NCBI RefSeq assembly: GCF_002024505.1
Contig: NZ_CP019402.1
Coordinates: 1,302,001 to 1,366,000, forward strand
Source of the DNA: Plantibacter flavus
GTDB taxonomy: Bacteria; Actinomycetota; Actinomycetes; Actinomycetales; Microbacteriaceae
DNA: 64,000 nt
Reading direction: 5' to 3'
This document shows positions 4,593 to 41,301 of this stretch, one piece after another (position 1 is the first letter of the stretch; each line of letters starts with the position of its first letter). The translations under genes were made by a program, and so were the position numbers. Under the pieces are notes generated by a model. It was not told where the DNA came from and did no database searches. It worked only from the letters and a program-made list of their open reading frames with translations.

Positions 4593-4668
4593 GCCGACGT
4601 GGCGCAATTGGTAGCGCAACGCTCTTGTAAAGCGTAGGTTACGGGTTCAAGTCCCGTCGTCGGCTCCA
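4593..4668 (+). tRNA. tRNA-Thr (anticodon UGU), prophage target
   Basis: A full cloverleaf can be drawn. The acceptor arms are 4593-4599 and 4658-4664, the anticodon stem is 4619-4623 with 4631-4635, the loop CTTGTAA places TGT at 4626-4628, and the T-arm is ACGGG-TTCAAGT-CCCGT. CCA is encoded at 4666-4668. The last 39 bases are the attL core, so integration rebuilt an intact gene; the displaced host 3' end is at 41263-41301. Confidence 0.95.
4630..4668 (+). repeat. attL core (39-bp direct repeat)
   Basis: Identical to 41263-41301, from the base just before the 3' anticodon stem through CCA. The bases just outside differ on both sides (A/T to the left, T/G to the right), which fixes the core at 39 bp. 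Confidence 0.95.
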
Positions 4669-4725: not shown

Positions 4726-4746
4726 TCGTTATTTACTCGTGGTTTT
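4726..4746 (+). repeat. Putative integrase arm-type site, P' side
   Basis: Twenty of 21 bases match 41116-41136 (shared core ATTTACTCGTGGTTTT). In the circular phage the two copies flank the attP core in direct orientation, about 60 bp and 126 bp away. This copy overlaps the last codons of integrase 1. Confidence 0.5.
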
Positions 4747-5892
4747 CATCACGAAGGACTGCAGGATTTCAGTGGCATCAGGCCCCTCGTGGCGCTGCTG
4801 TACGTAGTGACTGTTGGCCACTTGTTCCGAGGAGTGACCGAGTTGGTCCTTGGCGGCACCCACGCCGAGCTGATCCCTGAGGACGGTAGCCACGGCTTTG
4901 CGGAACGCGCGAGGCGTGACATCCGCCCACTCGGTCCCCTGAAGGGATCCTCGCCACTGGGTGCGGAAGTTGTTCGGAGACCGGAAGGTGCCCGTCGATG
5001 ACGGGAAGACGAACTCAGAGTGCGAGTTCAGGCGGCGCTCAAGCAGCATCTCCGCAGCGAAGGGCGGCAGCTTGAGCGCCCGGCGAGAGGTATCCGATTT
5101 CGGCCACTCCTGAACCGCGAGTCGACCATCAAGCCCGAGCGCGACCGTTCGTTCGATCGAGACTGTAGGGGGATCGGCGGCGAGGTCCAGATGCCTCCAC
5201 TCAAGCGCGAAGAGCTCACCGGTTCGAGCGCCCGTGGCAGCGAGCATGCGCGCGACGTCGAACAGGTCGGTTGTCCGTCGCGCGCCGCGGCCATCGACGC
5301 CGGCGTCCCACGCCTGGAGATGGGCGAGCACGGCTTGAGCATCGCTGCTGGTGGGTGCTGCCACGCGTTTCCGGGTCATCTCGATGGTCCCCACGTCGCG
5401 GACGGGGTTTGACCTGACTGCACCATGACGGGTCGCAAGCGCGAACATCTGGGACAGAACGACGCGCGTGAGCTTGGCCGTGCTCGGCCCGCTGGACTTT
5501 GCGAGCGCCTTCAGGAACCGGTCGAGTCGCGGCACTGTTGCCTCGTTCAGGCGCACGTCGCCGAGCCCGCGCACGATGTGCTTTGCGACAATCTCGCGGT
5601 ACTTGACGATGGTTCCGGGGGAAAGGTCGCGCTCCGCCGTCTCCGCGAGCCAGAGCTTCGCGAGGAGTGCGACGCGGGATTCGCCCGTAAGGTCATCGCC
5701 GGCCGGAGCTAGTCGATCCTTGAGTGCCTGCACGAGAGCGCGTTCCGCGGCGGCGGGTGTGGAGCCCTGGCGCTGCATCGGACGAGTTACGCCGTCGCTG
5801 TCCCGGTAGTAAGCGACGGCAGTGGGCTTACCTCCCACAGTTGTGCGGCGGATCCGGCCCCACGTTTCGAGCACCAATGGGGGTCGAGCCAT
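4729..5892 (-). CDS. int: Tyrosine integrase 1
   Basis: The protein has 387 residues from the ATG at 5892, which overlaps the repressor stop (TGATG); a GTG one codon upstream is also in frame. An N-terminal arm-binding region and a core-binding SAM-like domain (about residues 72-160) precede the catalytic domain. Catalytic residues are R223 (TGARTGE), K265, R331 (in TPRAFRK, the actinobacterial variant of HxxR with Pro at the His position), H353 (LGHSS) and Y363 (SHYV). It is co-transcribed with the repressor and its 3' end lies 60 bp from attL, the classic place for the gene that made this integration. A second integrase lies at the other end. Confidence 0.92.
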   Translation of the reverse strand: MARPPLVLETWGRIRRTTVGGKPTAVAYYRDSDGVTRPMQRQGSTPAAAERALVQALKDRLAPAGDDLTGESRVALLAKLWLAETAERDLSPGTIVKYREIVAKHIVRGLGDVRLNEATVPRLDRFLKALAKSSGPSTAKLTRVVLSQMFALATRHGAVRSNPVRDVGTIEMTRKRVAAPTSSDAQAVLAHLQAWDAGVDGRGARRTTDLFDVARMLAATGARTGELFALEWRHLDLAADPPTVSIERTVALGLDGRLAVQEWPKSDTSRRALKLPPFAAEMLLERRLNSHSEFVFPSSTGTFRSPNNFRTQWRGSLQGTEWADVTPRAFRKAVATVLRDQLGVGAAKDQLGHSSEQVANSHYVQQRHEGPDATEILQSFVMKTTSK

Positions 5893-6848
5893 CACTCGCC
5901 CCGGTACTCTTCGACGTCGCTGCCGTCGTCGCCCGCGTCTGGGTCGCCCTCCATATAGATCAGGCGGTACGTCTTGCCGTCTTCGCCAGTCTCGAGTTTT
6001 GAGCGATGGTTCGAACCGACTGGAGCCCCTGACTCATCGATAATCGGACCCACAACTGTGTGTGCGACTCGCCTGGGGTCTTCGCTGGCAGGTCGACGGC
6101 TGGATGACCGGTCGAGCGTGGGGTCGTCTTCCATCGCAAGGACCACGCGGCGGCGTATTTCCTCGATCCGTGCCTCGACGTTCGGGGGGACTCTCAGACC
6201 GTTCCAATCCCACATGCCGCCTGGCACGCGCTGCAAGAGGTCCCGATAGTCGTCGATGAGGTCTTGCACGTACGCGCGGTAGAAGTCGTCGCTTAGCATC
6301 TCCGCAGTGACGCCAAAGCTGTGAAGCGGGCCGTCGGAGTGCCGAACGGACCCCCGAGCATCTTCCGCCGCCTTGGCAGCAAATGCGCCTCTGTCTGATC
6401 TGGCATCCTCGATCGCTTGTACCTGCTTGAGTGAGCCTTCGGCTCTGAGCAGAGACGTCATCAATGCGCGCGCGTCGTTGGGGATCTGAAGCCCGTGCCA
6501 TGCGTTCTCGGGCGCGTAAATCGAAGTCGCGAACAGGTACTCGACGTTCGTCAGGCCGGCGTATCCGTCAGCAAGACCTTCCAGGGCGACCGGCTCGAAG
6601 GGGCTGGACATATCGACGAGAAGGGCGATGGGGGAGACGTCAAGCCCGCTCGCAACGAGGGCAAGTTCGGTGGCAGTGAGGTCTCGTTTCCGACCGCTCT
6701 CGACGTTGGCGATCACACCACGCGTGATGTCCGAGCTGGGGATCGCTTCCGCCAGCTGCTCTGCCGTCATGCCGCGCCACCGTCGAACCGCGGCAAGGCG
6801 CCGGCCAACGAGACTAACCGACTTCTTTGGAGCCTCATCTTGTGTCAT
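5892..6848 (-). CDS. XRE-family prophage repressor
   Basis: The protein has 318 residues. The N-terminal helix-turn-helix spans about residues 12-72 (RLAAVRRWRGMTAEQLAEAI ... GVIANVESGRK). The acidic C-terminal region has no recognisable protease or oligomerisation motif, so it does not look LexA/CI-like. It probably maintains lysogeny by binding the ACTGCAC repeats in the divergent control region upstream. The ATG is preceded by TAGAGT with a 6-nt gap and no Shine-Dalgarno sequence, which fits a leaderless transcript. An ACTGCAC copy overlaps that -10 element, suggesting autoregulation. It overlaps integrase 1 by one base. Confidence 0.8.
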   Translation of the reverse strand: MTQDEAPKKSVSLVGRRLAAVRRWRGMTAEQLAEAIPSSDITRGVIANVESGRKRDLTATELALVASGLDVSPIALLVDMSSPFEPVALEGLADGYAGLTNVEYLFATSIYAPENAWHGLQIPNDARALMTSLLRAEGSLKQVQAIEDARSDRGAFAAKAAEDARGSVRHSDGPLHSFGVTAEMLSDDFYRAYVQDLIDDYRDLLQRVPGGMWDWNGLRVPPNVEARIEEIRRRVVLAMEDDPTLDRSSSRRPASEDPRRVAHTVVGPIIDESGAPVGSNHRSKLETGEDGKTYRLIYMEGDPDAGDDGSDVEEYRGE

Positions 6849-37296: not shown

Positions 37297-37313
37297 GCGC
37301 AACACCCTACTGG

Positions 37314-37353
37314 CCCCCTGGCTCGCTCTACAGAGCGAGCCAGGGGGTTTTCT
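37314..37353 (+). terminator. Strong intrinsic terminator of the late operon
   Basis: A 15-bp perfect stem (37314-37328 with 37333-37347) with loop TACA is followed by TTTTCTTG. It is the best terminator in the prophage. Confidence 0.9.
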
Positions 37354-37422
37354 TGTGTTTCGTTCTAGTGCGTCTCGCTAACGACATGGTGTTTGAGACA
37401 GTGAAGCTGCTTGACTGAGCGA

Positions 37423-37755
37423 ATGTCCAACGAAGACCATCCGCCAGCGCCAGCGCCAGCGCCAGCGCCAGCGCCAATCAATGACGGCCGCCCCTCGAAC
37501 TGGGCGCTCGCCGTTCTCGGAGCTTTTGCTGTCGTGGCCATAGTCGCACTTCTCGCAGGGTTGAGACCTGAGAGCCCTGGCTTCATAGAGGGGCGCCTAT
37601 GGGATGGTGGCACTGCCATCCTTGCCGCTTGTGGGGTCGCGCTGTCTGGATGGCTGCCGAAGGGGTCGAGACGCACAGTCGTCAGTTGGGTCGGCATCGT
37701 GTTAGGTCTGGTCGGGCTGGCCTTGTCGGTCGGCAACTTCGTTGCAATCCGCTGA
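37423..37755 (+). CDS. Small membrane protein with Pro-Ala repeat
   Basis: The protein has 110 residues from ATG 37423. The N-terminus carries a (Pro-Ala)5-6 run encoded by a 6-bp tandem repeat. Three membrane segments follow (WALAVLGAFAVVAIVALLAG, GTAILAACGVALSGWL, TVVSWVGIVLGLVGLALSV). It is the first gene beyond the late terminator. Function unknown; a lysogeny-related membrane role is possible. Confidence 0.5.
   Translation: MSNEDHPPAPAPAPAPAPINDGRPSNWALAVLGAFAVVAIVALLAGLRPESPGFIEGRLWDGGTAILAACGVALSGWLPKGSRRTVVSWVGIVLGLVGLALSVGNFVAIR
37443..37472 (+). repeat. Five tandem GCCAGC units
   Basis: The five perfect 6-bp units encode Ala-Ser/Pro-Ala steps in the small membrane protein. Copy-number change would lengthen or shorten the tract in frame. 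Confidence 0.8.
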
Positions 37756-37851: not shown

Positions 37852-38142
37852 CTACATGCGTCGCCGCTGCACTCCGTCCCCGTCGATCCCATTCGGCGGA
37901 CCGTCCCTCCCGTCGCGCTTGGACGGGAGATCCCACCGCACCATCAGATCCGCGCCTTCCAACGTCGGCGTGGTCCCCATGAGCACGAGGGCGCCGGGGT
38001 CGGGGTCCCAGCGGAGGACGAAGAACACGTCGTTGCCGCGGCCGTCGCGCCGGCGTTGGATGATGGCCTTCGGGTGCACCGGGTCATTGCGCATGCACAA
38101 CCAAGTGTCGAGGTCGAAGCGGATAGGTCGAGTACGGGCCAC
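37852..38142 (-). CDS. Small protein of unknown function
   Basis: The protein has 96 residues from GTG 38142; TACGAT ends 7 nt upstream, the spacing of a leaderless start (GTG 38148 is also in frame). The mixed beta/charged sequence LDTWLCMRND...AIIQRRRDGRGNDVFFVLRWD suggests a compact fold. It is divergent from the three-gene cassette with a short shared upstream region. No family recognised. Confidence 0.5.
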   Translation of the reverse strand: MARTRPIRFDLDTWLCMRNDPVHPKAIIQRRRDGRGNDVFFVLRWDPDPGALVLMGTTPTLEGADLMVRWDLPSKRDGRDGPPNGIDGDGVQRRRM

Positions 38143-38220
38143 GAGCACGATCGTAGGTTGGGCCGCAGACGCTGTCTCAACCCGAGGGTTACGGAGCCCT
38201 GACGGGTGTGTGAGTCATGC

Positions 38221-38233
38221 CATAATCATCGTC
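38221..38233 (+). promoter_or_regulatory. Leaderless -10 element for the three-gene cassette
   Basis: CATAAT (38221-38226) ends 7 nt before ATG 38234 and no ribosome site is present, which suggests a leaderless mRNA. Confidence 0.5.
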
Positions 38234-38617
38234 ATGACTGAAGAGGCTGGCATCACCTTCGGAACACAGTGGCTCTGGGATCCGACGGCTCCTGTGCAAC
38301 TGGTCAATCAGCTAGTGATTCAGCCGGACGTGCCAATGCACGACGGAGCTGCAGGCGATCAGATCTACTTGACCTTTGGGCACCTGAATCCACCTCTAGT
38401 CCTCGGGGACGTGGCGGACCCCCAGGTTCAAGCGCAGCACGCCGGTGCGTTGCTCCCGATTACTCCCGTCGCGCGTCTCGCTGTTACGCGCGAGCGGCTT
38501 CAGGAGTTTTCAGAGGTTCTGAGCAACTGGCTGCAGACTGCGGGTGCAGCTGAACCGAAGGACCAAACTGAGTCGGAGGGGAGGGGCGAGCCGGGGGTGG
38601 CTCACCCTGCCCAATGA
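38234..38617 (+). CDS. Cassette protein A, unknown function
   Basis: The protein has 127 residues, starting leaderless at ATG 38234. A beta-rich core (LVNQLVIQPDVP, DQIYLTFGHLNPPLVLGD) is followed by PVARLAVTRERLQEFSEVLSNWL, a strand-helix end. The pattern ends in a disordered Glu/Gly tail. I recognise the 'yl-GHl-PP' style from unannotated actinobacterial three-gene clusters but know no function. Its stop overlaps the ATG of protein B. Confidence 0.6.
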   Translation: MTEEAGITFGTQWLWDPTAPVQLVNQLVIQPDVPMHDGAAGDQIYLTFGHLNPPLVLGDVADPQVQAQHAGALLPITPVARLAVTRERLQEFSEVLSNWLQTAGAAEPKDQTESEGRGEPGVAHPAQ

Positions 38618-39216
38618 ATAGCCCTCTTACTTTCAAGAAAGTGGCGCTAACTGTAGGTACTTCTGCTGCGCTGGTTCTGTCGGCAGGAGCGGCAGGTGCC
38701 TCGACTTCAAGACACGTCACTTACGAGGTGGTCATCCTCGACAGCGGTGCACCCGTGCCCGCCAAGAAAACCGAGCGCCGTGTTCGGGGGTACAGCTTCA
38801 CTGCCAGGTCGGGGGCGTCTAGCGCTTCCCCAGCCGTCTCGTCTAGTGTGCACAGTAGCGTCGTGCCCGACGCAGATCAGCTTCCCGAGGCCGTTATGAC
38901 CACCGTTTCTGAACTCCGGGCCCTTGAGGATGGATTCCTCGGGCCGGGAAGCGTCGCGCCGAAAACGGAAGTTCTCGGCAAGTTGCTCATGGTCGGTGCT
39001 GATCTTGCGGGCCGGCAGGTCGTTCCCTCGTGGGGTGGCGGCGTGATGATCGAGTGGGCCCGTCATGGTTGTGAATTCACTGCTGAGATTGAGTCAAACG
39101 GTCAGCTGTTTCTTTGCGTTGACAACACGGAGACCGACGAGCTTGCGGAAGTCGAGCGTCCGTTCGCCGTTGCTGAGTTGAAGCAGTTCCTGCAACACGG
39201 CAGCTGGAATGACTGA
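38614..39216 (+). CDS. Cassette protein B, possibly exported
   Basis: The protein has 200 residues, ATGA-coupled to protein A. Residues 1-30 look like a signal peptide (KKVALTVGTSAALVLSAGAAGAS), unusual in a cassette otherwise predicted cytoplasmic. The C-terminal half has the pattern VVPSWGGGVMIEWARHGCEFTAEIE...GQLFLCVDN, a small beta domain that I have seen in many two- or three-gene clusters of unknown role. It overlaps protein C by 8 bases. Confidence 0.6.
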   Translation: MNSPLTFKKVALTVGTSAALVLSAGAAGASTSRHVTYEVVILDSGAPVPAKKTERRVRGYSFTARSGASSASPAVSSSVHSSVVPDADQLPEAVMTTVSELRALEDGFLGPGSVAPKTEVLGKLLMVGADLAGRQVVPSWGGGVMIEWARHGCEFTAEIESNGQLFLCVDNTETDELAEVERPFAVAELKQFLQHGSWND

Positions 39217-39664
39217 GGCTGAATCTAACTCTGGCCCGCCGTCGCCAGACGCAGAAGATGAAATAGATGTCATCCCGTCGGTCGTCGAGATCGAGGACAT
39301 GGACGAAGTTCTTCTCCGGCAGGTTCATCCGACCCACTTCCAGCTGGGCGTTTTGTCGAAGGGTGCGTTCATCCCCGGGCCAGGTCACGATAACCTCCTC
39401 TCAACGCTGCGCGAACGCGTCGGGGCTCAGGCGGCCTACGAGCGCTGGATCGCTCAAGAATACGAATCCGCGGGGACCTGGGGTGTGGGTGTTGGCGAGG
39501 CGGCGGCTGCCTCGTTACCAGCGCTTGACGATGCGCTGGCTTCGAACGTTGCCGATCATGCATCTATCAGCTTCCAGGCCTGCGCAACGAAAGGCGAGAC
39601 CGCCAAAAGGGCACGGAAGCTGCGCGACTACGCGCTAGAGCGTGATTGTCTCTACGCTCCCTAA
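39209..39664 (+). CDS. Cassette protein C, unknown function
   Basis: The protein has 151 residues with an acidic N-terminus. Its core LLRQVHPTHFQLGVLSKGAFIPGPG ... WGVGVGEAA ... DHASISFQACATKGETAKRARKLRDYA resembles unannotated proteins that pair with 'GGV-EW' proteins such as B. Conserved His residues (RQVHP, DHASI) might be catalytic or structural. It ends 6 bases from the convergent integrase 2. Confidence 0.6.
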   Translation: MTEAESNSGPPSPDAEDEIDVIPSVVEIEDMDEVLLRQVHPTHFQLGVLSKGAFIPGPGHDNLLSTLRERVGAQAAYERWIAQEYESAGTWGVGVGEAAAASLPALDDALASNVADHASISFQACATKGETAKRARKLRDYALERDCLYAP

Positions 39665-39670
39665 TTCGAC

Positions 39671-40945
39671 CTAGGCAGTCGGTTCATGAAGGTACCGCAT
39701 CGAGCATGAAGTGCATCGCCATGCCCTCCCCGCTTCGATGACTGACCCGCCACAGGACCCGCACCGAGGGGCTGCATCGATAGACACTTCTCGCAGCTGT
39801 TCGGAGTACCGTTCCATCGCGTCAGTCAGGCGAGGTCGGTTGCCGAGTGACTTGTACGCACGACTCATCGAGCGTGCAGAGTGCCCGATGATCTCGACGA
39901 TGACGTCCTCGGGGACGCCGGCTTCGTACATGAGGTCGACCGCCGTGTGGCGAAGGTCGTGGAGACGGACGTTCTTCGTGATGCCGTAGCCGGCCCGCGA
40001 CTCTCGCCATCTTTTCGAGTCTCGATCAGGATCAATCGGGCGGCCGTCGTCGGAGAAGACGAGACCAAACTTGTTCGGTGGCGAGGAGTCCCGGTGAGCC
40101 TCGATGATCGACCGCAGTGGCTCGACCAGGGGGATGATGCGCCACCCGGCCTTCGACTTCGGTCTGGTGAGGAACAGGCCGCCGCGAAGCTGGCGATACT
40201 CGAAGTCCGCCGGCGCAATCAGCTTCGGGGGAGTGGTCGTACGGTCGAGGGGGAAGCGCTGCAACTGCCATGACAGGTCGAGCACATCGGTCACTCGGTC
40301 CCACTCAAGCCCGATGACCTCGCCGCGACGTGCGCCGGTGAGGATCGACGTCGCCCAGCGAGCGCCCCATGTCTCGTCGTGCCTCAGCCGCTGCAACACC
40401 GCACGAGCCTCGTCGGCGGTCAATGCCTCGAGCTCAACGTGCGGCTTCCGAGGTGGACGAATCATCTTCGCCGGGTTGAACGTGATGAATCGTTCCCGAA
40501 CGGCATCTTCGAACGCGGCTGACATGACCCGGTATGCGTAGAGGCTGTAGCTGCGCGCGAATCCGAGCTCGTCAACCATGCGATCCCCGACGCGTCTCAC
40601 CTGAGCCGCCGTCACACTGTCGAGTTTCGTGCGCCCGATTACCGGCACGATGTGCTTGTCGATGATGTTCGCGTACCCAAGGCGAGTGGTCGGTCGAACG
40701 TTTGGGACCACGGTCGTCGTCATCCAGTACCGGAACCAGTCCTCCACGGTGGGGTCGGCAAGCGCAACCTCGCCGCGAGCCTGCATTGCGACCCTGAATT
40801 CAGTCATCTTCCGTTCGGCCGTGGCCCGGTCCTTCGACCGAATCAGCTTGCGTCGGCGCTTGCCGTTGAGAGGCGGTAGCTCCATCGAGACACACCAGTA
40901 CCCCCGCGAATCCTGAAAGACAGACCCTTCACCCTTTGCCCGCAT
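39671..40945 (-). CDS. Tyrosine integrase 2 with C-terminal zinc ribbon
   Basis: The protein has 424 residues with AGGAGAG before the ATG. The N-terminal arm-binding domain (GSVFQDSRGYWCVSMEL) and core-binding domain (about 62-160) precede a fully canonical catalytic domain: R206 (TGARRGE), K265, H329-R332-H333 (HDLRHT), H355 (IGHS) and Y364. Beyond the usual end lies a zinc ribbon with C395, C398, C411 and C414. A promoter TTGGGA-18-TAGAGT faces it from the attP side. It looks intact. Whether it or integrase 1 acts on tRNA-Thr cannot be told from sequence. Confidence 0.9.
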   Translation of the reverse strand: MRAKGEGSVFQDSRGYWCVSMELPPLNGKRRRKLIRSKDRATAERKMTEFRVAMQARGEVALADPTVEDWFRYWMTTTVVPNVRPTTRLGYANIIDKHIVPVIGRTKLDSVTAAQVRRVGDRMVDELGFARSYSLYAYRVMSAAFEDAVRERFITFNPAKMIRPPRKPHVELEALTADEARAVLQRLRHDETWGARWATSILTGARRGEVIGLEWDRVTDVLDLSWQLQRFPLDRTTTPPKLIAPADFEYRQLRGGLFLTRPKSKAGWRIIPLVEPLRSIIEAHRDSSPPNKFGLVFSDDGRPIDPDRDSKRWRESRAGYGITKNVRLHDLRHTAVDLMYEAGVPEDVIVEIIGHSARSMSRAYKSLGNRPRLTDAMERYSEQLREVSIDAAPRCGSCGGSVIEAGRAWRCTSCSMRYLHEPTA

Positions 40946-41262
40946 CCGCTCTCCTGACCCTCGGGTTGACAGGACTCTACGCGGGCGACGGGCGTCCTCC
41001 CAAGTGCGCCATCTGGGCCGGAACGGACGGGCTGTCCAGATGTGAACTGCCGGTGTTCAGATCTAGGCGGAGCGCAGTGACTGACTCAACAGGGGGGTCT
41101 AATGCGGCCGATCGCTCGTGATTTACTCGTGGTTTTTGGCGCAGAACGGCACGGAAATCGGCGTAGACTGTCGTACATCGGAGCCCGATTGTGTCAGTGA
41201 AATTGGCTGGTCAGGCATATAAAGAACGAACTTTAACGTGCCGGACGTAAAGCCCGCCTGCT
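40946..41262. other. attP left-arm region (no gene)
   Basis: This 317-bp stretch is non-coding. It holds the integrase 2 promoter (minus strand, TAGAGT at 40979-40974, TTGGGA at 41003-40998), the 21-bp arm-type repeat at 41116-41136 and an AT-rich tract next to the core (about 41190-41240). These are the usual parts of a phage attachment arm. Confidence 0.65.
41116..41136 (+). repeat. Putative integrase arm-type site, P side
   Basis: Direct repeat of 4726-4746, 20 of 21 bases identical. Confidence 0.5.
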
Positions 41263-41301
41263 AAGCGTAGGTTACGGGTTCAAGTCCCGTCGTCGGCTCC
41301 A
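41263..41301 (+). repeat. attR core (displaced tRNA-Thr 3' end)
   Basis: Thirty-nine bases identical to 4630-4668, lacking any 5' half of a tRNA. Marks the right end of the prophage. Confidence 0.95.

Follow-up and report, generated by a model that had tools for sequence, protein, structure and literature searches.

Toxin-antitoxin-chaperone (TAC) systems of the SecB type, such as CmdTAC, HigBAC and the TAC of M. tuberculosis, are three-gene operons in which a SecB chaperone accompanies the toxin and the antitoxin, and the antitoxin carries a C-terminal chaperone-addiction extension. According to excerpts of PMC5105189, these tags do not resemble one another, can be transferred, and still function on a reporter to whose N-terminus they have been grafted. 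The chaperones described in the available portions of PMC5105189, PMC11980606 and PMC11618068 are SecB-like; others may have appeared in print. A second related system is PDC-M32, a candidate phage defence pair of PADLOC-DB that consists of two overlapping genes, M32A and M32B. It appears in a list drawn up for S. meliloti prophages, the available part of which states no function, and PDC is not mentioned in the accessible portion of the PADLOC paper (PMC9252829). Here we describe a three-gene cassette (genes A, B and C) in a 64,000-nucleotide stretch of the 4.21-Mb chromosome of Plantibacter flavus (contig NZ_CP019402.1, positions 1,302,001 to 1,366,000), hereafter the window. We read the cassette as a three-gene toxin-antitoxin operon on a prophage, with C as the toxin, B as the antitoxin and A as a chaperone-like helper, and put the probability of this reading at about 0.55. 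The toxin-antitoxin nature of the cassette is well supported.

The B-C pair and its PDC-M32 relatives

The three genes lie on the forward strand at 38234..38617 (A, 127 amino acids (aa)), 38614..39216 (B, 200 aa) and 39209..39664 (C, 151 aa). A and B overlap by ATGA (38614-38617) and B and C by eight bases (39209-39216), exactly as given in the initial annotation. The profile searches proposed there put a name to two of the genes. In PADLOC, C matches PDC-M32B (PDLC04579) with an E-value of 4.4e-24, over residues 32-150 and model positions 4-121 of 123. The C-terminal domain of B (residues 89-191, 38878..39186, +) matches positions 256-361 of the 375 in PDC-M32A (E 5.7e-7). Both relations had been missed earlier, whereas A stays nameless. 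The gene 5' of C does not encode a full M32A protein: only the last third of M32A is matched. Pfam and NCBIfam give no match for B, and PHROGs gave no name either. For C, Pfam and NCBIfam yield only a chance match (Pfam, E 0.22), and its single PHROGs match is phrog_31579, whose function is not known. These scans bear out the statement that none of the three genes matches a phage structural family, and the GGV-x-x-EW motif reported for B is present as GGGVMIEW.

PDC-M32 has the same gene order and the same two overlapping genes as B-C. Unlike M32A, however, B lacks the N-terminal domain of about 250 residues and carries a leader instead, and the cassette contains the extra gene A. A profile of the M32A N-terminal domain has no match in the window. 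The pairing was followed through 20 M32B loci with DNA (the window, L003-L006, L008-L020, L029 and L038; L007 was left out as a repeat of L029, and L030-L033 as repeats of L004, L003, L005 and L006 with longer flanks). The gene directly 5' of M32B carries the C-terminal domain of B in all 20 loci; the domain profile was built from 12 of them, and the other eight are an independent test. This domain is preceded by a long N-terminal domain in 14 loci and by a short or leader-like N-terminus in six. Gene A is present at four of the six short-form loci and was seen at none of the 14 long-form loci (hypergeometric P ~0.003, or 0.010 without L038, a locus found by the A search alone). The complete pairing indicates that C is always partnered by the C-terminal domain, and the distribution of A indicates that A and the leader together substitute for the long domain. 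The gene arrangement is that of type II toxin-antitoxin systems: the genes are adjacent, mostly overlapping, with the antitoxin-like gene first, and they are paired at every M32B locus examined.

The protein database contains 14 other homologues of C at E<=0.001, and those homologues of A and C that carry an organism name belong to Cryobacterium, Intrasporangium, Streptomyces, Terrabacter and Nocardioides. C gives three loci among viral contigs and no match in phages, and the cassette DNA has no match in phages either. Plasmids contain C matches in four records, and the three inspected all have the long M32A. Long-form pairs on plasmids are seen in Rhodococcus (L018, plasmid pN9T4-2), Limnohabitans (L019) and Rhizobium (L020). 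A DEAD/DEAH helicase and a DNA methyltransferase are encoded a few kb from the pair on pN9T4-2, and RelE/ParE and VapBC genes are found near the pair of Limnohabitans.

C is likely to have an ADP-ribosyltransferase (ART) fold. The structure model of C is confident, and the top 12 structural matches among those listed are all ADP-ribosyltransferase-type folds. The likeness is in the predicted fold; the sequence identity of C is 5-14% to the ART-fold proteins Tpt1/KptA and to the toxins of Tse2-Tsi2, DarTG and TreTu-TriTu, which have inhibitors. Foldseek alone, however, is not significant for the model of C. By sequence, the C profile has no match among solved structures, and a long M32A gives chance matches only. 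Catalytic motifs of this fold are of the R-S-E, H-Y-E or Tpt1 type. In an alignment of 33 C homologues, R37, S65 and H117 are present in all 33, P41 in 31, H40 in 27 and D116 in 19. Among the HP and DH positions that had been pointed out as conserved, the second histidine (H117) thus stands, but P41, H40 and above all D116 vary. H40 had looked invariant in 23 sequences and was dropped as an active-site residue when ten more distant ones were added.

Gene A, its putative leader partner and the toxin families behind it

The A family was searched with three successive profiles in 398 family, 396 order, 394 class and 396 phylum genomes (1,584 look-ups, the sets partly overlapping). At least 14 A loci with DNA are available, namely the window, the viral contig L009 and 12 genome loci; the further A proteins P0017, P0019 and P0020 stand outside this count. 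The A of L009 is identical to protein P0018 of Cryobacterium sp. Hh11. Among viral contigs, the A search returns the L009 contig alone and two other A queries return none. No match was found for the window's A in phages, for the A of L043 in plasmids or phages, or for the A of L036 in plasmids. The family is marked by the motif W..NQ..Q..YLxFGHxxPP.

At 13 of the 14 loci, A is followed by an antitoxin-like gene with an N-terminal leader (gene 2) and then by a toxin gene. Four toxin families occupy this last position: M32B at four loci (the window, L009, L029 and L038), RelE-like toxins at five (L026, L027, L028, L043 and L044; some RelE assignments have weak Pfam E-values), MazF/PemK at three (L035, L036 and L037) and PIN at one (L039). 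Since known toxin families are found in the position of C, C would be the toxin and B the antitoxin by position, independently of the fold prediction. B and C very probably form an antitoxin-toxin pair. At the RelE-type loci, gene 2 has a tail of the kind YYWTPEWQ...GEFEEFDSAEELIAWL, which we take to resemble antitoxin tails. An open frame with a tail of the same kind (WFWTPAWQ...) lies just 5' of the A of L044 (L044:89-274), which suggests tandem modules in this region. L040 has an A-family gene (L040:1401-1767) without a toxin gene behind it; the promoter-like box and GTG start are in a different frame from the gene body.

Homologues of the cassette genes do not usually occur singly, as C is found with the B domain at 20 of 20 loci and A with a toxin-antitoxin pair at 13 of 14. 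Co-occurrence of all three genes, which the initial annotation had asked about, holds for the B domain and C, but A and the leader are also found with RelE, MazF/PemK and PIN. The cassette is thus no fixed unit of three genes but combines two separable modules, A with the leader and the B domain with C.

Residues 1-85 of B (38614..38868, +) form an apolar N-terminal leader, which may be the segment bound by A. This N-terminus had been described as signal-peptide-like. A hydrophobic N-terminal stretch is present in seven of 13 gene-2 proteins (best 19-residue Kyte-Doolittle mean 1.5-2.1) and missing from six (0.6-0.9), start codons being partly uncertain in this count, so secretion is unlikely to be the common denominator of the leaders. 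The signal peptide was dropped as the principal reading of B. Export of B through the Sec pathway, with the cassette altering the envelope or excluding superinfecting phages at the surface, is quite unlikely. It would agree with the hydrophobic stretches in B and in gene 2 of L009 and L029 (best means 1.6, 2.1 and 2.1) and with AxA-like sites, read by eye, after the stretch in B and L009. However, besides the six proteins that have no such stretch, the B of L009 has no net positive charge ahead of it, at 14 of 20 loci the B-type domain forms the end of a long M32A protein, and the partner toxins RelE, MazF and PIN act in the cytosol. Of the roles in lysogenic conversion that had been suggested, envelope change is unsupported, whereas a toxin-antitoxin function is supported and phage exclusion is possible as its purpose.

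One public gene call of B (P0016, 117 aa) begins at residue 84. With this start, the leader would be untranslated and A an unrelated neighbour, a reading that we consider less likely still than export, because A stands before a toxin-antitoxin pair at nearly all of its loci, and the leader is an open frame in the window, L009 and L029. In addition, A and gene 2 overlap by exactly 4 nucleotides (nt) at eight of 13 loci, which favours the full-length start of B. No leader similarity was seen between the toxin groups of gene 2. By analogy with the tags of SecB-type systems, such a variable leader may be an addiction tag read by A, and it is probable that A acts on the leader of B in one way or another.

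Helper or regulator: the possible role of A

The A loci share several features with CmdTAC, HigBAC and the M. tuberculosis TAC. Three genes form the operon in both cases, a third component and an antitoxin extension are common to unrelated toxin families in both, and CmdTAC has an ART toxin where C has a predicted ART fold. There are also clear differences. By sequence, A does not belong to SecB: PF02556 is matched by none of 15 A members, and hhalign of A with E. coli SecB scores 2.3. Gene 2 has its variable extension at the N-terminus instead of the C-terminus, and the gene order of the SecB-type systems is reversed relative to A-B-C. SecB itself was found in two of 110 phylum genomes (one below the Pfam cut-off), both times in a toxin-antitoxin-SecB operon (L062 and L063, gene names read from translations). 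These two loci serve as a positive control: canonical TACs exist in the phylum but are rare. The cassette may resemble a TAC in its mode of action while differing in the helper, in the end that carries the tag and in the order of the genes, and it is not classed here among the TACs.

The window's A has no match in Pfam, NCBIfam or PHROGs, and one member of its family matches DUF6907 (E 0.0044). The family is weakly similar by profile to DUF3467 (PF11950), in one consistent register (score 17.2, P 0.0025). The best of 19 scored column shuffles reaches 9.7 and the reversed control 3.5, but the hhalign probability is just 4.7%. No A member reaches PF11950 by hmmscan, and no function of DUF3467 was found in the literature searched. 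The A profile has no match by sequence among solved structures. The structure model of A is too poor for fold claims, and the absence of SecB among the matches listed is uninformative.

The cassette has its own leaderless-type promoter, CTGACG-16-CATAAT with a TG extension (38199..38226, +), as had been described. CATAAT is at 38221-38226, with TG just before it and CTGACG 16 nt further upstream, and the promoter ends 7 nt from the ATG of A. Two promoter-like sites were found in the 2.9 kb scanned, compared with a shuffle mean of 0.4. The extended -10 box TGNNANNNT lies 6-7 nt 5' of the A start codon in ten of the 11 A-family loci with a placed A start (the exception is L043; L037, L040 and L044 were left out). 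At that spacing, the background in the DNA analysed is 134 of 28,980 ATG/GTG codons (0.5%) and six of 731 long-ORF (open reading frame) starts. The pattern was first noticed in the same loci and then counted, so the count is a description and not a blind test. The promoter at A is above chance, and the transcript of the cassette should begin at or adjacent to the A start codon. RNA folding of the stretch 5' of A is ordinary (z 0.86).

Three-component systems of regulator, antitoxin and toxin are known, as in omega-epsilon-zeta and PaaR-PaaA-ParE. None of the 11 gene-2 proteins scanned (all of the 13 but those of L043 and L044) matches a DNA-binding family, which makes a regulatory role of A the main rival: the toxin-antitoxin pair would be the same, and A would be the transcriptional regulator of the operon, binding the DNA of the promoter, perhaps with the help of the gene-2 leader or by way of it. 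The order A-B-C is that of regulator, antitoxin and toxin, and the conserved promoter box also fits. On the other hand, none of the 15 A members matches a helix-turn-helix or ribbon-helix-helix family. In ten of 11 loci, the inverted repeats around the promoter do not exceed the shuffled controls, being equalled in 11 to 100 of 100 shuffles; only those of L035 stand out (1 of 100). A pure regulator would leave the retention of the leader by gene 2 unexplained. We regard this role as unlikely, although less so than export or a short B. That A acts as a chaperone, judged by analogy with the SecB-type systems, has slightly better than even chances.

Prophage setting and biological meaning

The prophage spans the region between two identical 39-bp copies of the tRNA-Thr 3' end, attL at 4630..4668 (+) and attR, its right end, at 41263..41301 (+). 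An integrase (4729-5895, -) and a repressor-like gene (5892-6848) are on the left side, and terminase, portal, major tail, tape measure, endolysin and minor tail genes are in the middle; a family scan of ten of the larger proteins gave a match for nine. The cassette is located immediately inside a second, right-hand tyrosine integrase (39671..40945, -), which is convergent and directly 3' of it. These two distinct tyrosine integrases are accompanied by a single pair of att repeats, and a nested or fused element is possible. A 21-bp direct repeat (95%; 4726-4746 and 41116-41136) lies close to both att sites and possibly represents integrase arm or excision sites.

A 17-pair stem resembling an intrinsic terminator (37312..37349, +) follows the late genes on the strand of the cassette. 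The cassette does lie beyond it, as had been claimed, though terminator-like sites in the 2.9 kb scanned are not above shuffles (2, compared with a mean of 1.9). Being inside the prophage and in the same direction as the late genes, A, B and C could be late or structural phage genes without a role in the lysogen. This is very improbable, as they stand beyond the stem with their own promoter, match no structural family, and have relatives on plasmids as well as at chromosomal loci without a demonstrated link to phages. Between the stem and the cassette is a 114-aa ORF (37411-37755, +) with an AP-repeat run and a membrane-like C-terminus, for which a family scan gave nothing above the cut-off. 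A divergent 98-aa ORF (37855-38148, -) lies 5' of A. Its homologue is directly 5' of A in L027 (37% over 73 residues, E 8e-8, motif W-CMRNDPV-PKA), and none was found at other A loci within the flanks available.

If the cassette is a toxin-antitoxin operon with a helper, free C would be an ART-fold enzyme that modifies or consumes something essential. The C-terminal domain of B, corresponding to the end of PDC-M32A, would bind and silence C. A would bind the apolar leader and keep B folded and stable, as the SecB-like chaperone does in a TAC. If A were lost or diverted, for instance by a protein of a superinfecting phage, B would fail, C would be released, and growth of the infected cell would stop. 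The same outcome would be expected if the prophage itself were lost. Protection against other phages has a little less than even chances; this estimate is based on the prophage location, the promoter, the candidate status in PADLOC, and the precedents of CmdTAC and HigBAC (excerpts of PMC11618068 and PMC11980606). Maintenance of the prophage by addiction is equally compatible. A broader view, which is tentative and on balance doubtful, is that actinobacteria have a second class of chaperone-addicted toxin-antitoxin systems, independent of SecB and founded by A. In this class, the small helper and an N-terminal leader would have been grafted onto at least four unrelated toxin families (ART-fold M32B, RelE, MazF and PIN), and A would be a sensor titrated by phage proteins, through which the prophage protects its host by abortive infection.

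The toxin-antitoxin reading gives a concrete reason for a prophage to carry PDC-M32B, and PDC-M32B, previously a bare candidate, becomes a testable toxin of predicted ART fold. The A motif can serve as a search key for further toxins, including those of nameless families. A helper whose relatives accompany unrelated toxin families would be a new component, possibly for anti-phage defence. If this is true, a second, unrelated helper family serves several toxin families, and modules of a sensor plus an addiction tag would have arisen more than once.
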